DNA of 64,000 bases from Blautia sp. (GTDB taxonomy: Bacteria; Bacillota; Clostridia; Lachnospirales; Lachnospiraceae): NCBI GenBank assembly GCA_017515325.1, contig JAFWGA010000058.1, positions 1-64,000 on the forward strand, given 5' to 3'. The notes under the pieces were generated by a model, which worked only from the letters and a program-made list of their open reading frames with translations, did no database searches and had not been told where the DNA came from. Positions within the stretch are counted from its first letter, which is position 1. Each line of letters begins with the position of its first letter. The position numbers and the translations under genes were made by a program. Shown here one piece after another: positions 3,863-37,971 of the stretch.

Positions 3863-3989
3863 ACAGGCAGAGTTCCTTCATGACCGGGGCTGCTTTGAAA
3901 TGCAGGGTTATTATTTTTATAAACCTATGCCTGTAGAGGAATTTGAGAGGATAATGAAAGAAGCTGCTGACCGTCCTTACGAAAGATAA
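3828..3989 (+). pseudogene. C-terminal fragment of an EAL phosphodiesterase domain
   Basis: This frame reads MKMIAEGVETLEQAEFL, DRGCFEMQGYYFYKPMP and EEFERIMKEA, the invariant C-terminal end of EAL domains (EGVET glutamate and the QGYY glutamine). The preceding roughly 200 residues of the domain are absent, and the frame differs from that of the upstream GGDEF protein. The arrangement is explained by one internal deletion fusing the end of the GGDEF domain to the end of the EAL domain out of phase. Confidence 0.8.
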
Positions 3990-4043
3990 CCAGCTGGGCG
4001 ATAATTCCGGGGCATGAACCGGGGATACCGTGGAGGGCCGCAT

Positions 4044-21224: not shown

Positions 21225-21374
21225 GAAAAGCTGTCTCCTTTGTATAGTATGCGTGCGAAGTAACTGCGGAATCATGCCGCTTGCAGCGGCGTAAACTCGA
21301 CCTGGTAAATATGAACCGGAATGCAGACATTTTGTTCGTTTACCATAAGTTGAATGTCCGTTCGCTCACATTAC

Positions 21375-21403: not shown

Positions 21404-21462
21404 GTGTGAATATGCCGGGATCAGGGCTTTTTCTATACAGGGTAGAAAAACGGAACAGAGTT

Positions 21463-21471
21463 TGTTATAAT
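21463..21471 (+). promoter_or_regulatory. extended -10 promoter of HD-GYP/GGDEF gene
   Basis: TG-T-TATAAT with no clear -35 box at 17 bp. It lies 70 nt before the GGAGG-preceded start codon at 21541 and diverges from the promoter at 21375-21403. Confidence 0.55.
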
Positions 21472-21540
21472 CACTTTACTGTCATAATACGCGGTTCGCA
21501 GCGTGCGGGCTGCCGGCCTTGTAGTTACACGGAGGCAACA

Positions 21541-24500
21541 ATGGAAAAAGGAACCGGCTTGAAAAACAGGGTCCCAGAAGGACTGCCTTGTGGTCAGTTT
21601 GTTTATAGTGCTGAGGGAGATCAGAGTATCCTTTATGCCGACAGCAATGTCGTGCACCTGTATGGATGCCAAAGCTTTGAAGAGTTTATCGATTATATCG
21701 GCAACAGCTTTCACAATATGGTTCATCCGGACGATTTAGAGACAGCGGAGCATGCCATTAACGCTCAGACGCTGGAGAGCGGGCATCGGCATGATTATTT
21801 AAGATACCGGATTATCACTAAACAGGGCGACATCCGCTACGTTGAAGATTTTGGTCATATTGTCTTTGATGAAAAAGGACACGCTTACTACTATGTCTTC
21901 ATAGCCGATGTGAAGCAGGAGGAATATGTCAACGAATATTACAACAGCTTTGCCGAGGGGCAGATCGACGCCATGAACTGGAAGGTGGATCACCTGACTG
22001 GCCTTAAGAATATTGTGGCCTTCCGGGAAGAACTGGAGAGCTGCGCCGGCTTCCCCGTGACAGAGATGTGTACCGTTGTGGTCTTCGACATCATCGGCCT
22101 GCAGAAGGTAAACCGTAATTCCGGAAGAAACGAGGGGGACAATCGCATCCGCTCTCTGGTACAGTCGGTTTACAGTCACATGCCGAAGGACAGTTCTGCT
22201 TATCGCGGATATGATGCGGAAATCATTGTCGTCTGTCGGAACATGGCGGAAAAGGATGTCATCAACCAGATCAAGGAAACCGTCAGGTCCTGCCATAGCC
22301 GGGTCTTTTTCGGGGTCGCCTCAACGCTTGGGGCAATTATCAATACCGGCAGTTCCAGAAAAAAGGGTACCGTCCTGCAGGCGCTGGAAGAAGCACAGTA
22401 TGATCTGAATGTGAAAAAGATGCTCCATGAGGAGTCCGCCAGATCTCAATCCCTGACTTCTCTTGTCCGGGCCCTGGAGGAGGTGGACCAGGACACGGAG
22501 GAGCATGTCATGCGTACCCGCAGTATGGGCATTGCGCTGGGAAAGCGCCTGGGCTTGTCTGACGCCCAGCTAACCACGCTTGAACTGTTATGTCTTCTGC
22601 ATGATATCGGAAAGATCGCAATTCCTCTGGAAATCCTGAATAAGCCGGGAAAACTGACGGATGCAGAGTGGGCGGCCTTGCGGTCTCACGCCGACAAGGG
22701 CTATGAGATTGCCCTTGCGTCAAAGGAATTGAAGCCCATTGCCGAATATATCAGGTATCATCATGAGCGCTGGGACGGAAAGGGATATCCGCTGAAGCTT
22801 TCCGGTGAGGATATTCCGGTGTTGTCGCGCATCATCTCCATCGTTGATGCCTATGACGCAATGGTCAATGACCGTTGTTATCGCAAAGCCTTGTCCGTGG
22901 AATACGCGATGAAGGAAATCTCAGATAACGCGGGAAAGCAGTTCGATCCAGACATGGCAGGGGAATTTCTGGAATTGCTGCTGGAGAGTCCGGAGCTGGC
23001 AGTGGGCAAGAAAACAGGGGCCGGAGAGGTGCGGGTGTTCAGGACAAGCGCGGAGCAGAAAGCAGAGGCGGTCAATACGCAGCCTGTGATCTTCTGCGAG
23101 TACGAGCTGGATGTGGAAGACCGAATCATTGGGGCTGATCCTACCTTCGAGGCGATTACCGGTTACTCGCAGGATGATTATCTGGGGAAAATGAGCCAGT
23201 TCGATCTGATACCGCCGGGAGACCTGGACGACTATCTGGTGCAGGTCGGGAATCAGTTCTCGAAATCAAATACGGCTTTGCTGCGGCATCGCATTCAGCG
23301 TAAGGACGGTACAATCCTCAGTGTGATATGCCATGGAGAACGCCAGTTCGATTCCGCGACCAGAAGCTTTAAGAGCACCATTCAGATCTATGAGGTGGGT
23401 GACGAGAAGGAGAAATCCGTACACAGGCGGCAGGAAACGGAAAGAAGCATCCAGGGAGAGGATACTGCCGCAAGGGAAGCCTACGAAAAACTGCAAAGCA
23501 CCAGCATCATGTATAGTCATCTTGCCCACGCACTGGCCCGCGGCTATACGGATCTGTACTATGTCAACATGGACACGGATGAGCTCATCGAATTCCACAC
23601 CGATGACGAGAAGGGCGTGCTTACCGAGGCACGGCGGAGCGCAGATTTCTTTGAGGGCTGTGTGCGCGACGCCAGGCTCTACGTTTATCCGGAGGACCAG
23701 GAGAAATTCATAAAGGCCATGAATAAGGACCATCTCTGTGCCGCCCTGGATCGGTTCCGGGTGTTTGAGATGATTTACCGCAGAAAGAAAGAAGGAAGAA
23801 TCTTCTATGTGAATATGAAGGTTACCCGGATGGAGGACGATCAACGAGTGATTGTCATTGCCGTGTCCGATATCGATGAGCTGATGCGGCAGCGTCAGGC
23901 GGAGGAACGGATCCAGGAGGAGCGGATCATCTACGCCCGTCTTCACGCTCTGGCCGGCAACTGTATCTGCATTTACGTTGTGGATCCCGAGACAAATCAA
24001 TACCGTGAATTCCATGCAACCGACAATTATGCAGAGTGCTTTGCGCAGGAAAAGGAGGGATCGGATTTCTTCGAGAAGGTTCGGAAGGCTGGCCTCATCT
24101 ATAATTACCCTGAGGATCTGAACCGTTTCCTTTCTGCCTTTACCAGAGCGAATGTGATGGCGGAGATCGAACGCAGCGGTATCTTTACCCTTGGATATCG
24201 TATTTTAATGAAAGGGGAACCACTTCATGTCCAGCTGAAAGCTGCCATGGTAGACGAAAAGGAAGGCCCTCGTCTGGTTGTCGGTCTCTACGACATCGAT
24301 GCCCAGATACGACAGGAGGAAGAATTCAGCAGGCGCCTGGAGCAGGCACAGGTCCAGGCCAATATTGACGCTCTGACCGGGGTCAGGAACAAGCATGCTT
24401 TTCTGGAAGCCGAGGTGAAAATGGATCTGCAGATTAAAGAGCATCGTCAGCCTCCCTTTGCCATTGTGATGTTTGATGTGAACGATCTGAAAAAGGTGAA

Positions 24501-24837
24501 TGACACTTTCGGACATCAGGCGGGAGATCAGTATATCCGTGATGCCTCCGAAATCATCTGCAATATCTTCAAGCACAGTCCCGTATTTCGCGTTGGCGGT
24601 GATGAATTTGTCGCGATTTCCCAGGGGAAGGATTATGCGGAGATCGAGAAGCTGATCAGAGAAGTGGCTGATCACAATGCAAAGGCATCCGCCGCCGGTG
24701 GGATTGTGATTGCCTGCGGGATGTCGAAGCATCAGAACGATGAATGTGTGGCCGTCGTTTTTGAGCGAGCCGATCATAACATGTATGAGAACAAAAATGT
24801 CCTGAAATCATCCGGAAAGAGAAAAGGAACAGAGTAA
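21541..24837 (+). CDS. PAS-GGDEF-HD-GYP-PAS3-GGDEF bifunctional c-di-GMP enzyme
   Basis: About 1,098 aa, cytoplasmic. ATG 21541 has GGAGG 5 nt upstream; the frame runs 45 codons further back with no site. Domains: PAS 20-133; degenerate GGDEF 148-267 (GYDAE); HD-GYP phosphodiesterase 303-483 with HDIGK and HHERWDGKGYP intact; PAS 513-620; two PAS-like repeats 656-783 and 795-923 of the same type as in the proteins at 4044 and 33736 (LYYVNMDTDELIEFHT, YVVDPETNQYREFHAT); intact GGDEF 940-1087 (DALTGVRNKHAF, DVNDLKKVNDTFGHQAGD, RVGGDEF). No RxxD inhibitory site is visible (FKHSPVFRVGGDEF). One chain thus carries a probable cyclase and a probable HD-type hydrolase, a much rarer pairing than GGDEF with EAL. 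Confidence 0.9.
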   Translation: MEKGTGLKNRVPEGLPCGQFVYSAEGDQSILYADSNVVHLYGCQSFEEFIDYIGNSFHNMVHPDDLETAEHAINAQTLESGHRHDYLRYRIITKQGDIRYVEDFGHIVFDEKGHAYYYVFIADVKQEEYVNEYYNSFAEGQIDAMNWKVDHLTGLKNIVAFREELESCAGFPVTEMCTVVVFDIIGLQKVNRNSGRNEGDNRIRSLVQSVYSHMPKDSSAYRGYDAEIIVVCRNMAEKDVINQIKETVRSCHSRVFFGVASTLGAIINTGSSRKKGTVLQALEEAQYDLNVKKMLHEESARSQSLTSLVRALEEVDQDTEEHVMRTRSMGIALGKRLGLSDAQLTTLELLCLLHDIGKIAIPLEILNKPGKLTDAEWAALRSHADKGYEIALASKELKPIAEYIRYHHERWDGKGYPLKLSGEDIPVLSRIISIVDAYDAMVNDRCYRKALSVEYAMKEISDNAGKQFDPDMAGEFLELLLESPELAVGKKTGAGEVRVFRTSAEQKAEAVNTQPVIFCEYELDVEDRIIGADPTFEAITGYSQDDYLGKMSQFDLIPPGDLDDYLVQVGNQFSKSNTALLRHRIQRKDGTILSVICHGERQFDSATRSFKSTIQIYEVGDEKEKSVHRRQETERSIQGEDTAAREAYEKLQSTSIMYSHLAHALARGYTDLYYVNMDTDELIEFHTDDEKGVLTEARRSADFFEGCVRDARLYVYPEDQEKFIKAMNKDHLCAALDRFRVFEMIYRRKKEGRIFYVNMKVTRMEDDQRVIVIAVSDIDELMRQRQAEERIQEERIIYARLHALAGNCICIYVVDPETNQYREFHATDNYAECFAQEKEGSDFFEKVRKAGLIYNYPEDLNRFLSAFTRANVMAEIERSGIFTLGYRILMKGEPLHVQLKAAMVDEKEGPRLVVGLYDIDAQIRQEEEFSRRLEQAQVQANIDALTGVRNKHAFLEAEVKMDLQIKEHRQPPFAIVMFDVNDLKKVNDTFGHQAGDQYIRDASEIICNIFKHSPVFRVGGDEFVAISQGKDYAEIEKLIREVADHNAKASAAGGIVIACGMSKHQNDECVAVVFERADHNMYENKNVLKSSGKRKGTE

Positions 24838-25024: not shown

Positions 25025-25053
25025 TTGAACAGGACACGGGAATTGTGTATAAT
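25025..25053 (+). promoter_or_regulatory. sigma-A promoter of the sensor/binding-protein gene run
   Basis: TTGAAC (25025-25030), a 17-bp spacer, TATAAT (25048-25053). The start is expected near 25060. It is the only clear promoter I find before the run 25151-33644, so it may drive several of these genes. Confidence 0.85.
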
Positions 25054-25150: not shown

Positions 25151-26011
25151 ATGAATCAATCAGAAAAGAAAGGCAACGGCGGGATTTCTATCCACTTGAT
25201 CCATGGAATCATGCTGGTCTGTGCAGTGGCTATCGTGTCGCTTCTGGGGGCATCCACATTTCAGTCCTCAAGCATGTTCACCACTCTGTCCAACGAAGCC
25301 GGCAACTATATCGTCCGTCAGAAGGCAGCGCATGATCTGATGGAGGCCTCTGACTACCTGACGGAGATGGTACAGCGTTTTACACAGGACGGAGAAACAC
25401 GCTATCTCAACAATTATTTCGAAGAGGCTCTTGTCTCCAAGAGGAGGGAAGCGGCCATCTTGGCCATGTCGGAAAACGAGGCCGATCAGAGCCTGGTACA
25501 GCAGCTGAAGGAAGCCATGGAGGAATCCATGACGCTCATGTACCGTGAGTATTATGCCATGAAGCTGGTTGTTGATGCCAAAGAGATTCAGGACTGCCCG
25601 GATACGATAGACGCGATAGAGCTGAAGGATGAGGATGTCTTCCTGTCCCTCGATGAAAAAATGGAGCTGGCGCAGGATATGGTGATGGGTATCGAGTATT
25701 ATGCCAGCAAGGACAGGATACGCACGAAGCTGAAATCCGCGCTTGAGATGCTGGATCAGTCGATGTACAATACCCGCCAGAATACAGGCGCCGAGATGAT
25801 GCGCCAGCTTTCCTTTTACAGAATCATGCTCATCATTTTTACCTTCCTGCTGGTTCTTCTGCTCGCGGTGGTTGCAGGCTTCTGCACGATTCCTCTCATC
25901 CGGGCTTCCCGTAGTATGAAAAGAGATGAACCGATACCTGTCGCCGGCGCAAAGGAATTCAGGAGACTGGCTGAAGAATATAACAGGATGATTAATTCCG
26001 GGGAACCATGA
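25151..26011 (+). CDS. membrane sensor protein without output domain
   Basis: 286 aa. Start ATG 25151 is preceded by AGGAGA. One transmembrane helix (about 13-37), an external alpha-helical sensory domain of about 180 residues rich in acidic helices (40-220), and a second helix (about 228-252) are followed by a short HAMP-like segment (RASRSMKRDEPIPVAGAKEF) and EYNRMINSGEP, then stop. In related proteins this KEFRRLAEEYNRM segment leads into a GGDEF domain. None follows here in any frame. It is therefore either a truncated diguanylate cyclase or a sensor that works through another protein. The gene behind it encodes a solute-binding protein, a plausible partner. Confidence 0.7.
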   Translation: MNQSEKKGNGGISIHLIHGIMLVCAVAIVSLLGASTFQSSSMFTTLSNEAGNYIVRQKAAHDLMEASDYLTEMVQRFTQDGETRYLNNYFEEALVSKRREAAILAMSENEADQSLVQQLKEAMEESMTLMYREYYAMKLVVDAKEIQDCPDTIDAIELKDEDVFLSLDEKMELAQDMVMGIEYYASKDRIRTKLKSALEMLDQSMYNTRQNTGAEMMRQLSFYRIMLIIFTFLLVLLLAVVAGFCTIPLIRASRSMKRDEPIPVAGAKEFRRLAEEYNRMINSGEP

Positions 26012-26110
26012 CCGTTGATAGAAAATGATAATGAACATTCCGCGGTGCATAGCACCGGAATTGCCGGGTAAGGATGTCGGAAACCGGCATTTTTAGATGA
26101 GGAGAATGCT

Positions 26111-27022
26111 ATGCTGAAAAAGCACTGTTATGTGGTTTTGCCTGTCCTGATCCTTGCTTTGGCAGCTCTTGCCTGCTCCTTGCCGGCTGCTGCCGAAAAT
26201 GAGCAGGCTGATGAATATGTGGAGAATGAGTGGAATTTCGTGGACGAAGCTATGGATATCAGCCAGGGTATTCCGGATCAGGCTACCGGCATCCTGGGGC
26301 GGATCGAGAGAAACGGTGTTCTGCGAGTCGCGGTTCAGCCTGATCTGGCGCCCTATATCTGTACAGATCAGGACAGGAACTCCGACGGAGCCTTAAAGGG
26401 TGCGGATATCTGTCTGGCCAGTCTAATCGCGGAGCGGATGGGGGTAGAGCTGAGCATTCTGGAGCTGGATGCCATGCAGATCCTTCCGGCACTGACAGAG
26501 GAGCAGTGTGATCTGACTATTTCCGCCGTTTCTTTTACGCCGAGCAGGGCTCTGAACTATACCATGTCAAAAGGGTATTATTATCCTGAGAGCGAGCCGA
26601 ATATCAGCTTCCTGATTCATAAAGACTCTCAGAGCCGGATCAGGGATCTGGCGGACATGAAGGGATGCGTGATCATTACCCAAAGCAATTCTCTGGCTGA
26701 GACCGTCGGGACGGAGCTTTTGCATGATTATCTGGAATTCCGCCGGGTTTCTTCCGTGAAGGCTGTTTACGAAGCCGTGGAAAAGAAAACGGTGGATGTG
26801 GGCATTGTGGATATCAATATCACCAGGCTTTATCTGGAAAATAACCCCGATTGTGGACTGCATGTGATGGAGGATCTGGTCTATTCTCCGGCCAGACAGT
26901 ACCAGGGATACAGAGTTTGCGCAAAAAAAGGGGAAACACAGCTGATTGCTTTTGTCAATGGTGTAATCGATGAGATTCTGGAAAGCGGTGAATATGAGAG
27001 CTGGCTTGAAGAAACCATGTGA
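26111..27022 (+). CDS. family-3 solute-binding protein, orphan
   Basis: 303 aa. N-terminal signal peptide (hydrophobic 7-22, then AALAC, then LPAAAEN; either a lipoprotein-like Cys or an AxA cleavage). A spacer follows, then a type-II periplasmic-binding fold at about 58-300 (NGVLRVAVQPDLAPYICTDQ, GADICLASLIAERMG, CDLTISAVSFTPSRA, GYYYPE, DLADMKGCVIITQSNSLAETVG, AVEKKTVDVGIVD). Such proteins bind amino acids or similar small polar ligands outside the membrane. No permease or ATPase gene is adjacent. Its neighbours are a membrane sensor and an HD-GYP protein, which suggests ligand sensing rather than uptake. Confidence 0.85.
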   Translation: MLKKHCYVVLPVLILALAALACSLPAAAENEQADEYVENEWNFVDEAMDISQGIPDQATGILGRIERNGVLRVAVQPDLAPYICTDQDRNSDGALKGADICLASLIAERMGVELSILELDAMQILPALTEEQCDLTISAVSFTPSRALNYTMSKGYYYPESEPNISFLIHKDSQSRIRDLADMKGCVIITQSNSLAETVGTELLHDYLEFRRVSSVKAVYEAVEKKTVDVGIVDINITRLYLENNPDCGLHVMEDLVYSPARQYQGYRVCAKKGETQLIAFVNGVIDEILESGEYESWLEETM

Positions 27023-27056
27023 CGGAACAGTTATGATTACGGAAGGAAGAAAGCAA

Positions 27057-30000
27057 GTGAAGAAAGAAAGGATACATACACTGTTTTTTTCCCTGCAGAT
27101 TTTGCTCTGTCTTTTCCTGAACTGGGGAGGGGATCGGATCGTATCCCGCTTGAACTGGCCTGTCTGGCTGGACTCAATAGGAACGGTATTATGTGCTTAT
27201 CTGCTGGGACCATTTTGCGGGGCGGTTGTAGGGGCAAGCACAAATATTCTGGGGCATATTCTCTATGGGATTTCCATGTATTATAGCCTGGTCAGCATCC
27301 TGATTGCCGTGATTGTCGGCTTTGCCGCCCGGAAAAACAAACTGAACACCCTTCTGGATATCCTGAACGTCAGCGCTGTTCTGTCTCTGGCCGTTACCGT
27401 GGCAGCTTACCCTATCAACCTGCTGATCAGCTCAGGCAGCACGGGAAACAGTTGGGGTGACGCAGTGATCGGTTTTTTAAGAGGCATGGGAATTCCTTCC
27501 TGGGCCGGTCTGCTGGTGGGGCAGCTGTATGTGGAATTGCTGGACAAGCTTGTCATTCTGCTGGCACTCTTTATTGTGACAAAGCTCTTTCATCTGGTCA
27601 GAAGACTCACGAAACGATTTCCCTTCCACAGGCCGGAACAGGGAGCCGGATCAAAGCAGACCCTGCTTCTGTTCCTGGGAGCAGGGCTTTTGTCCCTGGC
27701 AATAGGATCGGCTCACGTGACGCAGGCCGGGGAGGCAGATGTCAGCTACAGTGATTACGTGCAGACGATTTATTCAACATCCAACGGCCTTCCCTGTGGA
27801 GAATCCAACGATATCGCCATGACCGGAGACGGAATTATGTGGGTGGGGACCTATGCCGGTCTTTACCGCAACAATGGGCAGGAGTTCCGCTGGATGGACA
27901 GCTTTGATTCTGTCCGCAATGTCAACTGCCTCTATGTTGACGAAGAAGGCAGACTTTGGATCGGAACCAATGACAAAGGCCTCTCCATCATGATCAATGA
28001 AGAGGTGGTGAATGTGATTGATGAAAGCCAGGGGCTGCCCTCCAATTCCGTCAAATCCATCATCCGAAGCTCCGACGGGTATTACTATGTCGGGACTGCC
28101 GGCAGTATGCAGGTTCTCACCCTCAACTGCGGTCTGAAGCGGCTCAGGACTCTCTCTGAAGTCAGCTATGCGGAACGGCTTGCCGCGGATCAGAGAGGAA
28201 ACGTCGCCGCGGTCAACAATGATGGTGTCCTGTTTCTGATGAGACAGGGACGGATCCTGGTTTCCGGAAAGCTGCCGCAAAACGGCCCCCTGTATAAAAG
28301 CTGTACCTTTGACCCGGACGGCATCCTTTTGGTGGCGACTACCGGTGATGAGATTTATCGGTACGATATCAGCAAGGATACCTTTGAGCCTCTCGATGTC
28401 ATAACATGTCCGGGACTGGCTACAATAAAAACGCTCTGTTATCTGGATAACGGAGATCTCATTGTCTGTGCGGACAACGGGATTGCCTGTATCGACAATG
28501 AAGGGACTTTTGAAAAAATCAATACCAACGAGTTTAACAATTCCATCGATCATATGCTTAAGGATTATCAGGGAAACCTGTGGTTCACCTCCTCCCGCCT
28601 TGGTCTTTTGCGCATGGCGCCTTCGGATTTCCGTGATATCTACAGAACGACAGGCATGGACAGCAAGGTGGTCAATACCGTTGTCCGGTGGAATGACATT
28701 TACTATTTCGGTACCGACAAGGGAATGGACGCCGTGGACCTGAAAGGAAGGGAGGCTTTGAGTGACGCCGTAACGGAACGCTTCTCCGGTCTCAGGATCC
28801 GATGCATGATCGTTGATTCGCAGAACCACCTCTGGGTCTGCACCTATGGAAGCGGGCTGGTGGAGCTGGAGCCGGATGGGACAGAACATCTCTACAACAG
28901 TGAAAACGGTTCCTTCGGAAATCGTGCCAGAGTAGTCAGGGAATTAAGAGACGGGACGATTCTGGCAGCCGGGGATACCGGCCTGAGCTTTATCCGGGAT
29001 CATATCGTGGAAGACACCATCAGCCGTTCGGCAGAGAGAATCAGCAGCATGGTGCTGACGATCACGGAGCTGGAGGACGGAAGGATTCTGGCCGGTACAG
29101 ACGGGGACGGGATCGCAGTGATCCAGAACAGAAAGGTAGCCAGGATGCTGGACACCAAGGACGGATTGGGCAGCGCAGTGATTCTCAGGACGGTGCTGGA
29201 TCAAAGCACCGGTGGTGCTTTTGTCGTGACAAGCAATGGCCTGTGTTACATGTATGCAGATGAGACAATCCGCCAGCTCAACAATTTCCCCTATTTCAAC
29301 AATTATGATATCTGGATTAAAGATGGGGAAAGCCTGTTTGTGCTTTCCAGCGCGGGGATTTACATCGTGGACAGAAAGGAGCTGCTTAGTGGCAAAGACG
29401 ACCTCTCCTATGACCTTCTGAATACTCGCCGTGGGCTGAGCGGAAGCCTGACGGCAAATGCCTGGCTCTGGTACAGTGAGGAAAGTGGGGAATTGTTTCT
29501 TCCCTGTGATACAGGCGTATTTGCTGTGAATACAAACAGCTTCTTCTCCAGCTCAAATGTCTATCGCATGGCTGTGACAGGAATCTGGATGGAAGGCAGA
29601 TTCCACCGCATCCGGAACAATACCTCTGAGGTGATCCCCAGGGGAACCAGCAGGATTGAGATTGTCCCGGAGATTATCAACTATACAGTCCAGGATCCCT
29701 ATGTCGGCTACATGCTGGAAGGCTTTGACACAGAGTGGACGATAGTGCCTCAGAATCAGCTGGGATCCATTACCTATACCAATCTGCCGACGGGGGATTT
29801 TGCCTTCCATCTGGCGGTTTTTGATAATAATCAGGAGAGGGTATTGGCCCAGCGCACGTACAAAATCTCGAAAGAGATGGAATTGTATGATAACAGCTGG
29901 TTTATTCTCTATATCCTTGTGCTTCCCATGTTCACAGTATGCTGGCTTTCCTTCTCCCTGCTTAAGAGACATGAAATGAAGATCAAAGCCCAGCTGGACC

Positions 30001-30758
30001 AGGCCAATCGGCAGATCGAGATGGGCAAGCAGACGGTGATCGCCATAGCGCGTACCGTCGACGCAAAGGATGAGAGAACCAGTGAGCACAGCAAACGCGT
30101 TGCCATCTACTCCAAACAGATCGCAGAGCGGCTGGGCCTGGACGAGAAGCAGTGCCAGGATATCGAATGGGCTGCCCAGATGCATGATATCGGCAAAATC
30201 GCCATCCCCGATGCCATCCTGAACAAGACCTCCCGGCTGACAGACGAAGAATATGCCATGATGAAATCACATACCACCCGCGGAGCGGAGATCCTGAAGG
30301 ATTTTACCCTTTTGGATCATGTGATCGAGGGAGCGGAATATCACCATGAACGCTATGACGGAAAAGGATACCCCAAAGGGCTGAAGGGAGAGGAGATTCC
30401 TCTCTATGCCAGAATCATCGGGGTTGCGGATGCCTTTGACGCTATGACGGCCAATCGTATCTACCGCAAGCAGATGGATTTCGGTTATGTGCTTGGGGAG
30501 CTGGAAAAAGGACGCGGAACGCAGTTTGATCCTCAGTTTGTGGATATCCTCCTGCAGTTGATCCATGAGGGAACGATAGACCTCAATAAGATCTATCACG
30601 TATCGGAAGAGGATGCTGCCGCAGCGGAAAAAAAGAAACAGGAAGAAGCGGCATCAGCCAGACAAGAAGCTGCAGTCAGCGCTGAGGCTGCAGAGCAGGG
30701 GAAAGTCGGAGCAGACGCATCGGGTCAGAAGACGACGGAGCAAGGGGGGGAATCATGA
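27057..30758 (+). CDS. membrane HD-GYP phosphodiesterase with transporter-like and beta-propeller sensor domains
   Basis: About 1,233 aa. GTG 27057 has GGAAGGA 10 nt upstream; ATG 27033 in the same frame is the alternative. Residues about 5-180 form five to six helices reminiscent of ECF-transporter S-components (VWLDSIGTVLCAYLLGPFCG, GASTNILGHILYG). Another helix lies at about 201-221. Next is an outside beta-propeller of regulator-type repeats at 238-828 (YSTSNGLPCGESNDIA, MWVGTYAGLYRNNG, LWIGTNDKGLSI, SQGLPSNSVKSI, LWVCTYGSGLVELEP), then a Y_Y_Y-type beta-sandwich at 861-934 (YMLEGFDTEWTIVP, ITYTNLPTGDFAFHL) and a last helix at 948-968. The cytoplasmic HD-GYP domain is at 991-1171 with HDIGK and HHERYDGKGYP, followed by an Ala/Glu/Lys-rich tail. 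It should hydrolyse c-di-GMP in response to an outside ligand. It overlaps the next gene by 4 nt. Confidence 0.88.
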   Translation: MKKERIHTLFFSLQILLCLFLNWGGDRIVSRLNWPVWLDSIGTVLCAYLLGPFCGAVVGASTNILGHILYGISMYYSLVSILIAVIVGFAARKNKLNTLLDILNVSAVLSLAVTVAAYPINLLISSGSTGNSWGDAVIGFLRGMGIPSWAGLLVGQLYVELLDKLVILLALFIVTKLFHLVRRLTKRFPFHRPEQGAGSKQTLLLFLGAGLLSLAIGSAHVTQAGEADVSYSDYVQTIYSTSNGLPCGESNDIAMTGDGIMWVGTYAGLYRNNGQEFRWMDSFDSVRNVNCLYVDEEGRLWIGTNDKGLSIMINEEVVNVIDESQGLPSNSVKSIIRSSDGYYYVGTAGSMQVLTLNCGLKRLRTLSEVSYAERLAADQRGNVAAVNNDGVLFLMRQGRILVSGKLPQNGPLYKSCTFDPDGILLVATTGDEIYRYDISKDTFEPLDVITCPGLATIKTLCYLDNGDLIVCADNGIACIDNEGTFEKINTNEFNNSIDHMLKDYQGNLWFTSSRLGLLRMAPSDFRDIYRTTGMDSKVVNTVVRWNDIYYFGTDKGMDAVDLKGREALSDAVTERFSGLRIRCMIVDSQNHLWVCTYGSGLVELEPDGTEHLYNSENGSFGNRARVVRELRDGTILAAGDTGLSFIRDHIVEDTISRSAERISSMVLTITELEDGRILAGTDGDGIAVIQNRKVARMLDTKDGLGSAVILRTVLDQSTGGAFVVTSNGLCYMYADETIRQLNNFPYFNNYDIWIKDGESLFVLSSAGIYIVDRKELLSGKDDLSYDLLNTRRGLSGSLTANAWLWYSEESGELFLPCDTGVFAVNTNSFFSSSNVYRMAVTGIWMEGRFHRIRNNTSEVIPRGTSRIEIVPEIINYTVQDPYVGYMLEGFDTEWTIVPQNQLGSITYTNLPTGDFAFHLAVFDNNQERVLAQRTYKISKEMELYDNSWFILYILVLPMFTVCWLSFSLLKRHEMKIKAQLDQANRQIEMGKQTVIAIARTVDAKDERTSEHSKRVAIYSKQIAERLGLDEKQCQDIEWAAQMHDIGKIAIPDAILNKTSRLTDEEYAMMKSHTTRGAEILKDFTLLDHVIEGAEYHHERYDGKGYPKGLKGEEIPLYARIIGVADAFDAMTANRIYRKQMDFGYVLGELEKGRGTQFDPQFVDILLQLIHEGTIDLNKIYHVSEEDAAAAEKKKQEEAASARQEAAVSAEAAEQGKVGADASGQKTTEQGGES

Positions 30759-31948
30759 AAAAAAAGCATATCCTTACGGTACTCATCTGCGCCGCTGTCC
30801 TGCTGTCTGCCGCCTTGATGACCGGATACTGGAACGAAAAGACAGTCAGCAGGGCGCTGGTCGTGGGCTTTGTCTATTCGGAGGATGAAAGCACGCCCTA
30901 TACCGCCAATTTCGTCCAGGCTCAGCGCAGACTGGAGGAGGAATTCGGCGATAAGGTGAAGATACTGACCAGAAGCAATGTTCTCAGCGATGATGCCGAG
31001 CGCCCCATGCAGGAGCTTGTCAGAGAAGGCTGTCGGATTATTTTCATCAATATGGATACCGATATTCCCGTCACCCTGGCCATGGAGCATCCGGAGGTGG
31101 AATTCTGCCAGATCTCCATGCCGGATATCACTCTGGAGGGTACAACGGAAAATTATCATACCTTTAACGGCGAGATTTATCAGGCCCGCTATGTCAGCGG
31201 AATTATCGCCGGCATGAAGCTGCGTGAGCTTCTGGACACCGGGGAGCTGCTGCCCAGGGAAGCCCTGGTGGGCTATGTGGGTGCCAATTCCAGCACAGAG
31301 GTCATATCCGGCTATACCGCCTTCTTTCTGGGGGTTCAGAGCGTAGCGCCCGAGTCTGTCATGAAGGTACGCTATACCGGAAGCTGGAGTAATTTCAGTG
31401 CTGAGAAAGAAGAGACCAGGAAGCTGATCGATGAAGGCTGCGTGATCATCGCCCAGCATGTCAATACCATGGCGCCGGCCATCGTCTGTGAGGAGGCTTC
31501 CGCTGCAGGGAAAACCGTATATCATGTGGGCTATCATCAGGGAATGATGGATGTAGCGCCTTCCTGCGCTTTGGTCAGCATCAGGACCAACTGGTCTCCC
31601 TATGTTCTGGAGGCTGTGCAGGCAGTTATGAATAAGCAGAATATCGAGAAAAGCGTAAAAGCAAACGTCCATGGCAGGGATTTAAGCGCAGGCTTCGAAA
31701 GCGGCTGGGTCGAACTGCTGGATCTGAACGATACCATCGCGGCATATGGCAGCCAGGAGAAGGCCGAAAAGGCTATCGATAGCTTGAAAAAGGGAAAAAC
31801 CAAGGTTTTCTATGGAAACTATACCGGGGTCAACCCCAGAAATTCTTCAGACACCATTGATTTAAATACGGAATTTATAGAGAATCAGAATTCATCCAAC
31901 CCCTCCTTCTCTTATATCCTGGATCGGGTTATTCAGGTAGAGAATTAA
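30755..31948 (+). CDS. BMP/PnrA-type solute-binding protein
   Basis: 397 aa. Starts with ATGA overlapping the stop of the HD-GYP gene, behind AAGGGGGG, so the two are translationally coupled. Signal segment at 5-25 (ILTVLICAAVLLSAALMTG). A type-I binding fold of the BMP (PnrA/TmpC) family follows: ALVVGFVYSEDESTPYTANF, RSNVLSDDAERPMQELVREG, IFINMD, TFNGEIYQARYVSGIIAGM, GYVGANSSTEVISGYTAFFL, GCVIIAQHVNT, YHVGYH. Family members bind nucleosides and related ligands. No ABC permease or ATPase gene is adjacent. The coupling to the HD-GYP gene makes a ligand-presenting role for the propeller/S-component receptor the most economical guess. Confidence 0.85.
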   Translation: MKKKHILTVLICAAVLLSAALMTGYWNEKTVSRALVVGFVYSEDESTPYTANFVQAQRRLEEEFGDKVKILTRSNVLSDDAERPMQELVREGCRIIFINMDTDIPVTLAMEHPEVEFCQISMPDITLEGTTENYHTFNGEIYQARYVSGIIAGMKLRELLDTGELLPREALVGYVGANSSTEVISGYTAFFLGVQSVAPESVMKVRYTGSWSNFSAEKEETRKLIDEGCVIIAQHVNTMAPAIVCEEASAAGKTVYHVGYHQGMMDVAPSCALVSIRTNWSPYVLEAVQAVMNKQNIEKSVKANVHGRDLSAGFESGWVELLDLNDTIAAYGSQEKAEKAIDSLKKGKTKVFYGNYTGVNPRNSSDTIDLNTEFIENQNSSNPSFSYILDRVIQVEN

Positions 31949-31997
31949 GGACAAGGTAACTGTTTGACTTTTGTGATGTGGGAGGAGGCAAACAGAT

Positions 31998-33644
31998 ATG
32001 AAACTGTTTTATCCTGGTAAAGTCATCATAAGCTTTTTGTTCCTTTTTGCCCTCCTGCTTTCCTCTGCGGCCTGTTCCCTGGAACGAGGGGATTCTGCCC
32101 TGCAGCAGGAACAAACCACGGAACCAGATATTTCCCACTTCCTTGTTGCTGTGGAAGACGAACCGGATACCGTGGATTTTCAGTGTACTACCATCCATTA
32201 TACCATTGCTCAGAATGTTTTTAACCGGTTGGTGGAGATGGAAGGCAACGAAGCCGGAGGTATGGATATTCTCCCCTCCCTGGCTGAGTCCTGGGAGGTA
32301 TCCGAAGACGGACGGGTGTATACCTTTCACCTCCGGGAAAATGTCGCTTTCAGCAATGGGGCGCCTCTGACCGTATCGGATGTGCTTTATTCCTTTATCA
32401 GGCTCCTGACTCACCCGGACTCCTGCAATCAGGATATTCTGGATGTGGTTGTGGGGGCGGAGGAGCTCATGGATGGGAAAACCTCGGGACTGGAAGGGTT
32501 TCAGGTTCTCGGTGAGCATGATTTCTCCATCACGTTGAAACAGCCATTTGAGGCTTTTTTGGCAGGATTGTCCATGCCAGGGGCTTCTATCATGGATGAA
32601 GAAACCACCAGGGAAGCCGGCCCTCGGTTCGGACTTGACCCTGCCTGGACCATAGGAACGGGATCCTTTATCCTCCGGAAATGGACACCGGAGGTGGGAA
32701 TGCTTCTAACCGCAAATCCCAACTGCTGGCAGGGACCTCCTGCCTGTGAAGGACTTGACCTTCGTTTTCTGACAGAGCCGGAGGAGATTCAGAACCTGTT
32801 TGACAATGGTGAGCTGGATATCCTGGATTTGGATGAGGTAGGGGACTATGCGGAGTTTTACATTCACGGAGACATCTATCAGGAAAGATTATTCCGGGTT
32901 CCCCGCATTGGTATCGTTTATATTGCCCTCAACGAAGCGACTCCCCCGCTTAATGACGTAAAGGTCAGAAAGGCCATGCAGCTGTCCCTGAACCGTGCCA
33001 TCCTGCTGAATGTGGTATACAGTGGATTAGGAGCTGTGGAGAATGGGATATTTCCTCACGGCTTGTATGGCTTCAATCCCGAGCTGCCTGAGATTCCCTT
33101 TGACCCTGATGAAGCCAAAGCCCTGCTTGCCAAGGCCGGATACCCTGATGGATTTGATCTGACTGTTCAGGTCAAATCTTCCTCTACCCAGTGGGAAATG
33201 ACCCTGATGCGGCTGGCCGCCTCTATGTGGGCGAAAACAGGCATTCGGGCAAGGATTATCGTCCTGGACGAGGATGAATTTATGAGCCTTCGGAAAAGAG
33301 GTGAGATTACCTGCTATACGGCTATGTGGACAGCGGATTTCAATGACCCGGATAATTTTATCTATACCTTTTTCGGAAACCGCGAGAATACTGTGAACCG
33401 CAGCCTCTGTTACCCGAACGAAGAGATTATGGGGCGGGTGAGGGAAGCCAGGAGCATTACCGATCCGGAAACACGCCTTGCTGAGTACAGGGAGCTGGAA
33501 CGAATCATCATACAGAAGGACGCTGCCTGGATTCCTTTGTTTTCCCGATTGCGGGTGTATGTATTATCCGAGCGGGTGGAAGGTGTCCAGGCCTCCTGGA
33601 ATGGTTCTGTAAAAAACAGGTATCGGGATGTCGTCATCAAATAA
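31998..33644 (+). CDS. family-5 (OppA-like) solute-binding lipoprotein, orphan
   Basis: 548 aa. Lipoprotein signal with lipobox SSAAC at about residue 26. A full family-5 binding protein follows: FLVAVEDEPDTVDFQ, FNRLVEMEG, LPSLAESWEVSEDGRVYTFH, LRENVAFSNGAPLTVSDVLY, DPAWTIGTGSFILRKWTP, NDVKVRKAMQLSLNR, AKALLAKAGYPDGFDLTV. Binds peptides or similar ligands. GGAGG stands before the ATG, and the gene lies 49 nt behind the BMP-type gene, probably in the same transcript. The usual oppBCDF genes are absent. The third orphan binding protein in 8 kb. Confidence 0.88.
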   Translation: MKLFYPGKVIISFLFLFALLLSSAACSLERGDSALQQEQTTEPDISHFLVAVEDEPDTVDFQCTTIHYTIAQNVFNRLVEMEGNEAGGMDILPSLAESWEVSEDGRVYTFHLRENVAFSNGAPLTVSDVLYSFIRLLTHPDSCNQDILDVVVGAEELMDGKTSGLEGFQVLGEHDFSITLKQPFEAFLAGLSMPGASIMDEETTREAGPRFGLDPAWTIGTGSFILRKWTPEVGMLLTANPNCWQGPPACEGLDLRFLTEPEEIQNLFDNGELDILDLDEVGDYAEFYIHGDIYQERLFRVPRIGIVYIALNEATPPLNDVKVRKAMQLSLNRAILLNVVYSGLGAVENGIFPHGLYGFNPELPEIPFDPDEAKALLAKAGYPDGFDLTVQVKSSSTQWEMTLMRLAASMWAKTGIRARIIVLDEDEFMSLRKRGEITCYTAMWTADFNDPDNFIYTFFGNRENTVNRSLCYPNEEIMGRVREARSITDPETRLAEYRELERIIIQKDAAWIPLFSRLRVYVLSERVEGVQASWNGSVKNRYRDVVIK

Positions 33645-33735
33645 ATGAAAAAGATTCCTTTTGCCGAAGTGACGGAACCCCCATCCGAAAACAGTTTGTC
33701 AGACCAGAACATGCGTTCTGCGAGGAGAGATGATA

Positions 33736-36700
33736 ATGCATTCCATTCGAATCAGAATCACGGTAATTACCATCGTTGCAATCATCACGACTATTCTGTG
33801 CGTGTTTGCGGCGTCTTTTGCTACGCTTAGAGCGGAAAACAACCGGAACTCTGTGGAAAAGATGAGCCTGATTGGGCAGGATACAAAGAAGTCTATCGAG
33901 AAATATACAGAGAGTATTGAACATGCTATTGAGATGATCACCAATATTGCTTCGGATTCTCTGGACAGAGTGATTCTTGCCGAAAACGGAGCAATCGGAT
34001 CGAATGAGAGGCCGGCCGAACGTGATCCTGAGCAAAAAGCACGGCTGGATACTTATCTTACAGGCTACTGTGCCGGGATTCAGGAAATCTTTACCGGTAT
34101 CGCAAGCCATACGCATGGAATCATTTCCTATTATTTCTGTATAAATCCGAAGATCAGCGGGACAGTCCACGGCTTTTTCTTTTCCAGAGTCGGCAAAACC
34201 GGCTTTGAAGAAAAGGAGCCCTTGGACGCGGCTCGGCTGGATCCTGATGATACAGCCCATAACACCTGGTATTATACTTCGATACAGCGTGGACGTCCCT
34301 CCTGGATAGGCCCCTATACCGCCCAATCTCTGGGAGAGCTTTGGATTTGTTCCTATACTGTCCCACTGTATCGGTCAGGTACCTTGATTGGCGTGATCGG
34401 AATGGACATTCCTGTTGATATTCTGATCGATCAGGTTGATTCGATACGGGTCTATGATACAGGATTTGCCAGCCTGCTTGAAGAAAACCGTGTTCTTTAC
34501 CATCCGGAAAGAGAATTCGGGAGTGTGCTGGAGGCTTCCGATCTTCCCTTCAGCGAGGAGCTTTACAGGCAGGACAAGAGCGGAGACGAGCTGATCCGCT
34601 ATACAAAAAACGGAGAAGAGCGGCAGCTGTCCTTCTGTACCCTGACCAATGGCATGAAGCTGGTCATTGTTGCCCCCACAAGGGAAATCAATGCGGCATG
34701 GCTCCGGCTTGTCAATAACAACCTGTTGATCACAATGGCTATTATCATTGCTTTTGTTGTGATCATCATGCTGGTGATGCGGGCAATTACCCGCCCCTTG
34801 TTGCTGCTTACCGCAGCCTCCCAGAGACTGGCCGATGCAGATTACGATGTTGACCTGAACTATCAGAGACGGGACGAGGTTGGTACCCTGACCATCGCTT
34901 TCAAGAAGATGCGGGATCAGATCAGACAATATATTGATGACCTGAATCGTCAGCTTCTGACCGACAAACTGACGGGGCTGCCAAATGTCAGACATTTTTT
35001 CAGACTTGCGGCAGCCGAGAGAGAGCGCTTGCTTGAGCAGGGCAAACAGCCCGCTATGCTTTATTTTGATATTCTGGGAATGAAGCACTACAATCGGCAG
35101 TTCGGCTTTGAAGCGGGAGACCGGTTGATTTGTGAATTTGCAGGATTCCTTTCCCGGCATTTCGGCCGGCAGAATGTCTGCCGATACAGTGGGGATCATT
35201 TTGCGGCGGTAGCTGAGGAGCAGGGGCTGGAGGAAAGCCTGGAGGAGTTTTTCCGGGAATGCCAAAGCGCAGACAGCGGGAAGCCTATTCTTGTCAAAGC
35301 CGGAATCTATCCCTACAGACTGGAGGACGTTGACGTGAATGTTGCCTGTGACCGGGCAAAGCATGCCTGCGACCAGAACAAGTCGCTTTTGGCTTCCGGT
35401 TATTCCTGGTTTGACAATAATATGTTAAAGCAAGGAGAGCTGTATCGCTATATCTACAATAATCTGGATCGGGCTTTGTCTGAGGGCTGGATTAAGGTGT
35501 ATTACCAGCCGATTATCCGGGCCGCGGATGGCAAGGTTTGTGACGAAGAAGCTCTGTCCCGCTGGATCGACCCTGTCATGGGCTTCATTTCCCCAGCCGA
35601 TTTTATCTATGTGTTAGAGGATTGCAGACTGATTTACAGACTGGATCTGTATGTGCTGGAGCAGGTTCTGGAAAAGATGAAACAACAGGCTGAGGCAGGT
35701 TATTATGTCGTGCCCCAGTCCGTCAATCTATCCCGTTCCGATTTTGATGCCTGTGATATCGTGGAAGAAATCAGAAAGCGGGTGGATGACGCTGGAATGG
35801 ATCGTTCTCTGATCACCATCGAAATTACGGAAAGTGTAATCGGCAGTGACTTTGACTTCATGAAAAAACAGGTTGACCGCTTCCGGAGTCTTGGCTTCCC
35901 GGTGTGGATGGATGATTTTGGGAGCGGATATTCTTCCCTGGACGTGCTCCAGCAAATCCATTTTGATCTGATCAAGTTTGATATGAAGTTTATGGAACAC
36001 TTTGATGAAGGGGACGAAAGCAAGATCATTCTGACAGAGCTGATGAAGATGGCCTTCGGTCTCGGAATGGAAACCGTGTGCGAGGGGGTGGAGCAGGAGA
36101 ACCAGGTGGATTTCCTGCGTGAAATCGGCTGTACGAGGATTCAGGGATACTATTATGGCAAACCCCTTCCCTTCGAAGGAATTCTTACTCTGCTTGAAAA
36201 AGGGTTGCCCTTGGAATTTGAAAACCCGGCGGAGTCGGAATACTATGCTGTTACCGGCCGGATCAATCTTTATGATATGGCGGTACTTCTCGATGACAAT
36301 GATGAAAACCTGCGGCACTATTTTAATACCCTGCCTATGAGCATCCTGGAGGTCAATGGAAACAAGGTGAAATATTACCGCTGCAACAAATCATACCGTG
36401 ACTTTTTGCAGCGCACCTTAGGTGTTGACCTCAGAATAGAAGAAATGGATTATTTAGCCATGCCTGAGGGAATCGGAATAGCGTTTATGAATGCAGTGGT
36501 CCAGTGCAGCAGGGGCGGAAAACGAGTGTTGGTGGATGAAAGAGTCAATGAAGATACTACGATACATGCTTTCGTCCGACGAGTAGCGGTCAACCCGGTT
36601 TCCGGAACGGTGGCTGTTGCGGCAGCAGTTCTCGCAGTGGTCAAAGAGGGAGAGAATGCAGGGACCAATTATGCCCAGATTGCGAAGGCTCTGTCTGCGG

Positions 36701-37971
36701 ATTATGTGAATCTCTACTATGTAAATCTTAATACCGGGAAATTCACGGAATATAATCCCGATGCAGCCAGAGAGAATCTTACCTTAGAGCGCCATGGCGA
36801 GTATTTCTTTACCATTAGTCGCGAGGAGGCAAAACAAAAGATATACAAGGACGATCAGGAGTATTTTATCAGCGCTTTTCATCGGGAAAATATAGAGAAA
36901 AATCTTGACGAACAGGGGGCGTTTACCCTTACCTACCGTTTGCTGATCGAAGGGAAACCAACCTATGTCACGATGAAAGCCGTGCGTATGCCTGGAGATC
37001 GGTCGCACATCATTATCGGTGTCAGCAATGTGGACGCGCAGATGCGGCAGAAGGAAGTACTTGCCCGGATTCAGGCGGAGCGGGCTACCTATTCCAGGGT
37101 CAGCGCCCTCACACAGGATTACATTTGTATCTATACGGTTGATCCGGAAACCAATCAGTACACAGAGTACATTGCAACAGAGGACTACGCCGAGCTTTCC
37201 TTACCGAAGGAGGGAGATGATCTGTTTGCCCAGTCCCGTATAGAAAGCGTCCGCTATATTTATCCCGAAGACCTGAGGAAATTCCAGACTCTGTTTACCC
37301 GGGAAAACATACTGGGAGAAATCCAGAAGAATGGCATTTGTGCTTTTCGCTATCGGATGCTGCTGGATGGCGAGCCGACCTATGTCGGACTCAAAGCCGC
37401 TCTTGTGGAGGAAAATGACGGTCCCCAGCTTATCATCGGGATCAATAATGTTGATGCACAGGTCACGCGGGAAATGGAGTATGAATTGCAGTTGTCAGAG
37501 GCACGCAGTAAAGCAAATCTTGATATCCTTACCGGAGTGAAAAACAAGAATGCCTATGAACAGATGTCAGAGTCATTGTCACGGCAAATCGAATGGGGAC
37601 AGTCCGTAAGATATGCGATTGTGCTATGCCAGGTAAAGAACCTTGCCCTTGTAAACGAAAGCAAAGGCAGAGAAGCAGGGGATCAACTTATTCGTGAGGC
37701 CAGTACCCTTGTCTGCGAAACCTTTAAGCACAGTCCTGTTTTCCGAGTGACAGGAGACCAGTTTGCTGTCATTGCACAGGGCTATGACTTTGATTACGTG
37801 GATGTATTGTTAAAGAGCCTGAGAGCGACAATCCTGAGGGAAGAGCTGCCTGTTTCCTGCGGAATGGCGAAATATGATGAAACGGAGGGAGTATCTGCCG
37901 TCTTTGCCCGCGCGGAAGGGATCTGCCGTGGAGAAAACAATATTGATGATACTATAGGATGCGCACAATGA
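33736..37971 (+). CDS. dCache-HAMP-GGDEF-EAL-PAS3-GGDEF phosphodiesterase
   Basis: About 1,411 aa. ATG 33736 is 8 nt behind GAGGAG (ATG 33730 is only 2 nt away). Transmembrane helix 5-28; outside double-Cache sensor about 35-325 (LDTYLTGYCAGIQEIF, YYTSIQRGRPSWIGPYT, IGVIGMDIPVDILIDQ); helix 331-351; HAMP 351-405; GGDEF 408-555 degenerate (SGDHF); EAL 565-821 complete (EEALSRW, SVNLS, EITES, MDDFG, IKFD, CEGVE, QGYYY); PAS-like 841-971; two PAS-like repeats 975-1103 and 1116-1245; second GGDEF 1261-1404 degenerate (TGDQF). Both GGDEF sites are altered, so a pure phosphodiesterase is expected. From the GGDEF domain onward the order parallels the protein at 4044-9713, including nearly identical stretches around EITES and MDDFGSGYSSLDVLQ. 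Confidence 0.9.
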   Translation: MHSIRIRITVITIVAIITTILCVFAASFATLRAENNRNSVEKMSLIGQDTKKSIEKYTESIEHAIEMITNIASDSLDRVILAENGAIGSNERPAERDPEQKARLDTYLTGYCAGIQEIFTGIASHTHGIISYYFCINPKISGTVHGFFFSRVGKTGFEEKEPLDAARLDPDDTAHNTWYYTSIQRGRPSWIGPYTAQSLGELWICSYTVPLYRSGTLIGVIGMDIPVDILIDQVDSIRVYDTGFASLLEENRVLYHPEREFGSVLEASDLPFSEELYRQDKSGDELIRYTKNGEERQLSFCTLTNGMKLVIVAPTREINAAWLRLVNNNLLITMAIIIAFVVIIMLVMRAITRPLLLLTAASQRLADADYDVDLNYQRRDEVGTLTIAFKKMRDQIRQYIDDLNRQLLTDKLTGLPNVRHFFRLAAAERERLLEQGKQPAMLYFDILGMKHYNRQFGFEAGDRLICEFAGFLSRHFGRQNVCRYSGDHFAAVAEEQGLEESLEEFFRECQSADSGKPILVKAGIYPYRLEDVDVNVACDRAKHACDQNKSLLASGYSWFDNNMLKQGELYRYIYNNLDRALSEGWIKVYYQPIIRAADGKVCDEEALSRWIDPVMGFISPADFIYVLEDCRLIYRLDLYVLEQVLEKMKQQAEAGYYVVPQSVNLSRSDFDACDIVEEIRKRVDDAGMDRSLITIEITESVIGSDFDFMKKQVDRFRSLGFPVWMDDFGSGYSSLDVLQQIHFDLIKFDMKFMEHFDEGDESKIILTELMKMAFGLGMETVCEGVEQENQVDFLREIGCTRIQGYYYGKPLPFEGILTLLEKGLPLEFENPAESEYYAVTGRINLYDMAVLLDDNDENLRHYFNTLPMSILEVNGNKVKYYRCNKSYRDFLQRTLGVDLRIEEMDYLAMPEGIGIAFMNAVVQCSRGGKRVLVDERVNEDTTIHAFVRRVAVNPVSGTVAVAAAVLAVVKEGENAGTNYAQIAKALSADYVNLYYVNLNTGKFTEYNPDAARENLTLERHGEYFFTISREEAKQKIYKDDQEYFISAFHRENIEKNLDEQGAFTLTYRLLIEGKPTYVTMKAVRMPGDRSHIIIGVSNVDAQMRQKEVLARIQAERATYSRVSALTQDYICIYTVDPETNQYTEYIATEDYAELSLPKEGDDLFAQSRIESVRYIYPEDLRKFQTLFTRENILGEIQKNGICAFRYRMLLDGEPTYVGLKAALVEENDGPQLIIGINNVDAQVTREMEYELQLSEARSKANLDILTGVKNKNAYEQMSESLSRQIEWGQSVRYAIVLCQVKNLALVNESKGREAGDQLIREASTLVCETFKHSPVFRVTGDQFAVIAQGYDFDYVDVLLKSLRATILREELPVSCGMAKYDETEGVSAVFARAEGICRGENNIDDTIGCAQ

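Follow-up and report, generated by a model that had tools for sequence, protein, structure and literature searches.

Binding-protein genes paired with genes of membrane cyclic di-GMP enzymes in a Blautia genome and in related Lachnospiraceae

We analysed a stretch of 64,000 nucleotides (nt) from Blautia sp. (assembly GCA_017515325.1, contig JAFWGA010000058.1, positions 1 to 64,000), referred to below as the window, in which genes for three solute-binding proteins stand among genes for membrane proteins of cyclic diguanylate (c-di-GMP) signalling. Two of these binding proteins are our main subject: a BMP/PnrA-like protein (BMP), whose gene directly follows that of a large HD-GYP receptor, and an OppA-type protein (OppA), whose gene directly precedes that of a dCache-GGDEF-EAL protein.

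Genes at the locus

The cluster and its features, with lengths in amino acids (aa), are as follows:

25025..25053, + strand: promoter-like TTGAAC-17-TATAAT, a sigma-70-like consensus match before the cluster
25151..26011, + strand: membrane protein of 286 aa with two predicted helices and no output domain; no Pfam match
26111..27022, + strand: SBP3, a family-3 solute-binding protein (Pfam SBP_bac_3, E 6.5e-20)
27057..30758, + strand: receptor of 1,233 aa (GTG at 27057) or 1,241 aa (ATG at 27033), with Reg_prop (1.3e-24), Y_Y_Y (6.7e-9) and HD_5 (1.4e-44)
27057..27641, + strand: membrane domain of the receptor resembling the S component of energy-coupling factor (ECF) transporters, about residues 1-195 (NF045596 and hydrophobic segments)
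27744..29840, + strand: Reg_prop propeller repeats and Y_Y_Y domain of the receptor (Pfam), probably outside the cell
30051..30536, + strand: HD-GYP (HD_5) domain of the receptor with HDIGK and HHERYDGKGYP motifs (Pfam and motif reading)
30755..31948, + strand: BMP/PnrA-like binding protein of 397 aa (Pfam Bmp, E 1.4e-22), without lipobox, with an N-terminal hydrophobic helix
31998..33644, + strand: OppA-type protein (Pfam SBP_bac_5, E 4e-79) with a lipobox-like Cys
33730..37971, + strand: dCache-HAMP-GGDEF-EAL protein of 1,413 aa with two GGDEF stretches, the partner of OppA

The first-pass annotation, which covered 25151-33644 and thus ended just before the dCache gene, had listed five genes on one strand, from the membrane protein to OppA, and open reading frames and Pfam matches place all five there. 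Its size for the receptor, given on a 1.2-kDa scale, has to be corrected to about 137 kDa, as estimated from 1,233 aa. The coding regions of receptor and BMP overlap by 4 nt, as it had noted (receptor end 30758, BMP start 30755), and, likewise in agreement, ABC permease or ATPase genes were absent among the scanned genes from 25151 to 37971. It had also placed the genes behind one clear promoter. The TTGAAC-17-TATAAT match is indeed present, but it is weak evidence, since promoter-like matches over the whole stretch (25) exceed the mean of shuffled sequences (13.3, standard deviation 4.0). The window BMP matches the Bmp/PnrA-like family PF02608 with 80.5 bits, above the cut-off of 24.1.

Joint occurrence of receptor and BMP genes

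A first survey searched 41 genomes by BMP. The three closest BMPs (46-50% identical) stand behind the same SBP3-receptor gene pair without importer genes; in all of the next 17 BMP contexts examined (L034-L050), BMP-type ATPase and permease genes adjoin the BMP gene. Because searching by BMP biases the result, the sensor half of the receptor alone served as query in the later surveys, as an alignment (A4) of 4 sequences, of which BMP searches had supplied three. Among named genomes, the best 80 of 312 receptor relatives were considered, including one locus (L156) that is probably the query source G003:C73 itself. All 75 loci with room for it have BMP as the next gene downstream on the same strand, and the remaining 5 of the 80 end at a contig edge. 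The family survey of Lachnospiraceae (299 genomes, 298 genera, E<=1e-150) gave sensor-half matches in 46 genomes, at 46 places besides the window's own. Here, BMP directly follows 22 of the 24 receptors of at least 850 bits; it was found beside 0 of the 20 weaker receptors with room (n=22, below 850 bits) and 0 of the 10 distant propeller paralogs with room that have no membrane domain (n=12). The coupling of BMP to the receptor, which the first-pass annotation had singled out as its strongest hint, thus held up in the gene-order search, in which the strong receptors proved to occur mostly with a BMP and not mostly without one.

The pairing also shows in the details of the linked loci. In 72 of 99 receptor-BMP pairs the gap between the genes is negative, and in 61 it is exactly -4. 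When the neighbours of these 99 loci were clustered, with BMP at +1 in all of them by selection, the next frequent neighbour was SBP3 at -1 (58 loci), followed by a cluster in 15, scattered; importer genes (ATPase, permeases) were not among the frequent clusters. On a tree of 123 receptors (18 of 141 were dropped as not spanning the sensor half), the presence of BMP requires 2 changes, as expected from a single gain and a single loss, the latter in L228 and L230, with the caveat that these two are long branches that may be falsely joined. The receptor group occurs in 25 of the 299 family genomes, own genome included; Butyrivibrio sp. NC2007 (L173) is one of the named strains that also have it. 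A phylum-wide draw of 398 genomes gave the receptor at E<=1e-150 in 3, counting the own genome, and all 3 are Lachnospiraceae. The SBP3-receptor-BMP trio is also seen in metagenome-assembled genomes labelled Chloroflexi, Flexilinea and Anaerolineaceae (L149, L153, L155), by transfer or through a binning error.

The reciprocal search gave the same picture. With a BMP profile (A3), the same 299 genomes contain 23 places of at least 464 bits, the next being at 290 bits, and these 23 correspond to the own genome and the 22 genomes with a receptor-linked BMP. The BMP adjoins the receptor in 22 of the 23; in the last (G191) it is split over two contigs, the first of its parts following the receptor. 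Apart from this split copy, the 299 genomes gave no receptor-type BMP at a distance from a receptor. In a quick tree (LG+G4, with long-branch warnings in other parts), built from 92 receptor-linked, 29 importer-linked, 5 chemoreceptor-linked and 1 kinase-linked BMPs, the 92 receptor-linked sequences form one clade (SH-aLRT support 100) apart from all others. Since the importer BMPs stand apart as a group and lie in operons of their own, the window BMP is not an importer protein that lost its permeases. The idea that BMPs sit with permeases in relatives and merely lost them here, which the first-pass annotation had named as a way to overturn its proposal, thus found no backing for BMP.

Another alternative is that BMP still serves uptake through a BMP-type ABC importer encoded elsewhere, so that the pairing only co-regulates uptake and c-di-GMP. 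The ATPase and two permeases of a BMP importer operon are absent at the window BMP, but the window's own genome does contain a complete importer (L043), which has a BMP of its own. A single BMP-type permease query (E<=1e-5), run in 21 receptor-BMP genomes, found matches in 11 of them, some weak. In the other 10, 9 of which are at least 90% complete, such a permease was not detected by this one query, which could miss divergent permeases; three of the 22 family genomes (G355, G131, G213) and the majority of the genus genomes lay outside its scope. The pocket residues discussed below are alike in importer-linked BMPs, which would suit continued uptake. Importer BMPs nevertheless occupy other branches and have their own operons, and receptor-type BMPs keep to their receptors, so we regard this alternative as quite unlikely.

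Several observations weigh against a tight functional unit of receptor and BMP and have to be set beside the counts. Two strong receptors (G088, G327) have no BMP alongside and none detected in the genome; BMP is thus not strictly required, and the partner can be lost. The evidence comes entirely from homology and the order of genes, at loci of common ancestry. Divergent permeases could escape the single-query search in 21 genomes, as said above. Receptor and BMP trees correlate at 0.848 (91 pairs), but we do not take this value as evidence of contact, because it indicates co-inheritance only and may reflect shared descent. Absence of a lipobox lost weight as a mark of receptor-linked BMPs, too: by a crude pattern, 8 of 92 receptor-linked BMPs have one, and it is also rare in importer-linked BMPs (9 of 29). 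The receptor-linked N-terminus measures a median of 37 residues before the core (range 35-70), with a linker of 11-20 residues versus 11-65 in importer-linked BMPs, and by these alignments its rather constant form is the only distinctive feature of the receptor-linked N-termini. As judged from sequence, the gene arrangement is nevertheless beyond chance, and receptor and BMP form one unit, with the BMP dedicated to its receptor.

OppA, SBP3 and other binding proteins beside receptor genes

For OppA, the partner is a different one. The dCache part of the protein encoded at 33730-37971 was searched in the 299 family and 64 genus genomes and occurs at 65 places besides its own, of which 18 were examined, namely all 11 of at least 259 bits and 7 of the 54 weaker ones. 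OppA stands directly upstream, with no permease beside it, in 11 of the 11 stronger loci (gaps from -80 to +253, with mechanical start codons); in the 7 weaker loci examined it was found in none, one of them (L337) being without upstream room. Conversely, a search for OppA relatives at E 1e-80 gave 11 of at least 629 bits, which lie in exactly these 11 dCache-GGDEF(-EAL) loci. The next 14, of 314-549 bits, comprise 13 that head Opp permease operons and one cut by a contig end. Near the HD-GYP receptor, OppA occurs in only 2 of the 80 named-genome loci (L150, L151), where it is divergent and has a GGDEF-EAL partner of its own. Because its 11 closest relatives all precede a dCache-GGDEF gene, OppA belongs with 33730-37971 and not with the HD-GYP receptor.

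The permease-free state of both binding proteins could in principle reflect a decayed transporter operon that lost its permease and ATPase genes and left the binding proteins behind. The lack of permease genes nearby is what such decay would produce, but the same permease-free order recurs around BMP in 99 other loci with kept pocket residues, and around OppA in 11 loci. No relatives with permeases were seen on these very branches in the BMP and OppA searches, and we consider decay highly improbable.

SBP3 behaves differently from BMP. It lies upstream of the receptor in 61 of 77 named-genome loci with room versus 0 of 45 in the family survey, and is thus an optional, lineage-specific addition. 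Its Arg146, which we take to be the carboxylate-binding arginine of amino-acid binding proteins, is kept in 59 of 59 aligned sequences, window included. The membrane protein at 25151-26011 ends in what reads by eye as a HAMP-like remnant; among the 80 named-genome loci, 8 have a relative immediately before SBP3, and in 4 others one lies about 4 kb upstream. This protein also resembles (113 bits) part of a GGDEF protein that lies two genes behind the receptor in another locus (L169 14840-16249), which would fit a diguanylate cyclase sensor that has shed its output. The first-pass annotation had proposed that all three binding proteins form one outside recognition module that tunes c-di-GMP breakdown through the HD-GYP receptor. 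That permease-less binding proteins are tied to a c-di-GMP receptor stands; the assignment of all three to one receptor was rejected, with OppA going to the downstream GGDEF-EAL gene and SBP3 being optional.

Binding-protein genes also adjoin other types of receptor genes. The ECF-S-like/propeller sensor half occurs in related proteins with histidine kinase, GGDEF or other HD-GYP outputs (L234-L254), and BMP was found beside none of those with room. Five genes beside BMP-less receptors were scanned. SBP_bac_1 genes (L237, 2662-3927; L254, 10891-12111) stand directly upstream of two receptors with the same sensor half, the one in L237 a hybrid histidine kinase by Pfam and the one in L254 with kinase motifs. 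In the own genome, an SBP_bac_8/SBP_bac_1 gene (L257, 9331-10923) overlaps a propeller paralog; it may encode a shared importer protein, because two 6-helix proteins, probably permeases, precede it. For the remaining two (L244, L234), no binding protein was found in the scanned neighbour genes. In one of the weaker dCache-GGDEF loci (L338), a DctP binding protein (3945-5090) lies 1 nt upstream.

BMP itself is found with further partners. Five loci (L270-L274), in five genomes, carry BMP lipoprotein genes directly before chemoreceptor genes, without permeases; three of these partners are sCache-MCP proteins by Pfam, the other two were recognized by eye. In L275 (3696-7536), where permeases are likewise absent, a BMP gene whose product has a short N-terminal helix overlaps the following gene, that of a hybrid histidine kinase (HisKA-HATPase-receiver-Hpt), by 65 nt when mechanical start codons are used. 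Weak BMP matches also come from proteins of about 640 aa that show no evident signal peptide (L277 4764-6692 in the own genome, L278-L284, L052, L053, L057-L059), one of which (L279) has Pfam Bmp at residues 294-454 only.

The window is also unusually dense in c-di-GMP genes from 2408 to 37971, upstream of and including the genes described so far. These are an SBP_bac_3-GGDEF fusion (2408-3862), an EAL/GGDEF/PAS protein of 1,899 aa (4014-9713), a 7TM-GGDEF protein (10375-11874), an EAL-PAS-GGDEF-receiver protein on the - strand (17955-21275) and an HD-GYP/GGDEF/PAS protein (21406-24837). Behind the cluster, a 140-aa piece (38648-39070) that matches only positions 72-156 of 161 of MatE is possibly a MATE transporter remnant.

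Architecture, probable ligand and proposed control of c-di-GMP

The hydrophobic segments of the receptor comprise a multi-helix N-terminal domain, one more segment after it near residues 200-220 and a helix near 946; because of this pattern, the propellers are predicted to lie outside and the HD-GYP domain inside the cell. Hybrid two-component sensors of the Reg_prop/Y_Y_Y type have a similar outer architecture of propeller and Y_Y_Y. The window receptor differs from them in its HD-GYP output, its N-terminal ECF-S-like domain and its separate binding protein. It has both the HD and the GYP motif and is, by motif, a predicted HD-GYP c-di-GMP phosphodiesterase. HD[IV]GK is present in all 100 BMP-linked receptors and HHER[YF]DGxGYP in 78 of them, while 12 have a last residue other than P and 10 fit neither pattern. 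In L217-L222, L224, L225, L227 and L231-L233, all BMP-linked, the GYP motif ends in L, V, I, A, M or C with HDIGK kept.

ECF S components bind small molecules, and a contact of S components with EcfT is marked by an AxxxA pattern. The resemblance of the receptor's N-terminus to an S component thus leaves room for a different route, in which BMP would not dock on the propellers but hand its ligand to the ECF-S-like domain as the true sensor or transceptor. The first approximately 180 residues match NF045596 at E 5.7e-21, but with 75 bits against a cut-off of 180, and the receptor stays below the cut-off of PF07155 as well (24.4 versus 26.7 bits). Only 13 of 100 receptors have AxxxA within their first 45 residues. 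Furthermore, of the 22 weaker relatives in the family survey, 17 have a match to the membrane-domain part as well; their outputs are other or similar, and BMP is beside none of those with room. A handover of this kind is, in our view, unlikely.

The nearest solved relatives of the window BMP are 3s99 and AtzT (6pi5), BMP-like proteins that bind purines. In AtzT, guanine is held between Tyr45 and Trp194 and bonded by Asn218, Asn220, Glu165 and Ser97, with a KD of about 110 nM (PMC6834077). When the residue numbers of that paper are taken as those of the chain plus 5 (our own count), the alignment places Tyr45, Trp194, Asn218, Asn220, Glu165 and Ser97 at Y49, W211, H235, N237, E182 and M100 of the window BMP. 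By alignment, it thus has a predicted AtzT-like pocket with an aromatic sandwich and a Glu (Y49, W211, E182). Across the 92 receptor-linked BMPs, these positions hold Tyr in 84, Trp in 86, Glu in 87, His in 85, and Asp in 57 or Asn in 26. AtzT differs in that it is thought to serve uptake (PMC6834077), whereas the window BMP is tied to a receptor and the equivalents of Ser97 and Asn220 vary.

Our best guess for the ligand of BMP is a purine base or a similar ring compound, and some points speak against it. Of the 92 linked BMPs, 8 lack the Tyr of the sandwich, the Ser97 position varies, and sugars were predicted for almost all Bmp-family members in a binding-protein survey (PMC9602780). Importer-linked BMPs have the same pocket, which thus is no mark of the sensory branch; because of this similarity, we see a conserved ring-binding pocket and no special ligand.

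The closest known system is NspS-MbaA of Vibrio cholerae, in which a binding protein controls an adjacent membrane c-di-GMP enzyme and the coding regions overlap (PMC8967002); homologs from Sinorhizobium are treated in PMC9993111. In the window, too, a binding-protein gene adjoins the gene of a membrane c-di-GMP enzyme without neighbouring transporter genes, and for BMP and its receptor the coding regions overlap. The systems differ in that NspS binds polyamines and is paired with a GGDEF-EAL enzyme in a Gram-negative periplasm, whereas the window combines BMP with an ECF-S-like/propeller/HD-GYP receptor and OppA with a dCache-GGDEF-EAL protein in Gram-positive Clostridia. Neither pair combines a polyamine-type protein with GGDEF-EAL: pair 1 has Bmp and HD_5, and pair 2 has GGDEF-EAL but SBP_bac_5. 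The pairs are thus like NspS-MbaA but not members of its group, because their binding proteins come from other families and pair 1 also has another output.

We consider it probable that the stretch encodes two neighbouring binding-protein/receptor pairs that control c-di-GMP, BMP with the HD-GYP receptor and OppA with the dCache-GGDEF-EAL protein, and that both work like NspS-MbaA. In the first pair, BMP would be held at the membrane by its N-terminal helix, bind its small ligand and, once loaded, dock on the outer propeller part of the receptor. Docking might then change the activity of the inner HD-GYP domain and hence, in whichever direction, the level of c-di-GMP. Lineage-specific extra inputs to the same receptor may come from SBP3, which probably binds an amino acid, and from the membrane protein without output. 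In the second pair, the putative lipoprotein OppA, probably for a peptide, would act likewise on the dCache-GGDEF-EAL protein.

That ligand-loaded binding proteins act on receptors, c-di-GMP enzymes included, is an established principle (PMC9602780, PMC8846402). The latter, a 2022 review, states that among the 27 Pfam families that make up the periplasmic-binding-protein clan, SBP_bac_3 was the only one studied so far in c-di-GMP networks. A description of BMP or OppA with an HD-GYP or GGDEF-EAL receptor was not found in the titles, abstract starts or passages of the openly licensed PMC papers that the searches listed. In our best reading, the principle is known, and the binding-protein families and the receptor architecture are new, with a broad reach in Lachnospiraceae.

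For most c-di-GMP enzymes, to our knowledge, the stimuli are not known. For a receptor group present in 25 of the 299 family genomes, the partner binding protein points to a concrete class of ligands, and the receptor signal therefore becomes directly testable. Permease-less BMP and OppA genes should accordingly not be annotated as importer parts by default. Nutrient-binding proteins of gut and rumen bacteria appear to have been reassigned as co-receptors of c-di-GMP membrane enzymes. Tentatively, and with less than even confidence, we propose a widespread Gram-positive outside-sensing system, in which a membrane-anchored, purine-binding BMP would be the usual co-receptor of ECF-S-like/propeller/HD-GYP proteins, in this genome next to OppA as peptide co-receptor of the dCache-GGDEF-EAL enzyme. 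Outside purines, amino acids and peptides could then set one c-di-GMP balance, and recruiting BMP, OppA, SBP_bac_1 and DctP proteins as co-receptors may be a general habit of this family.

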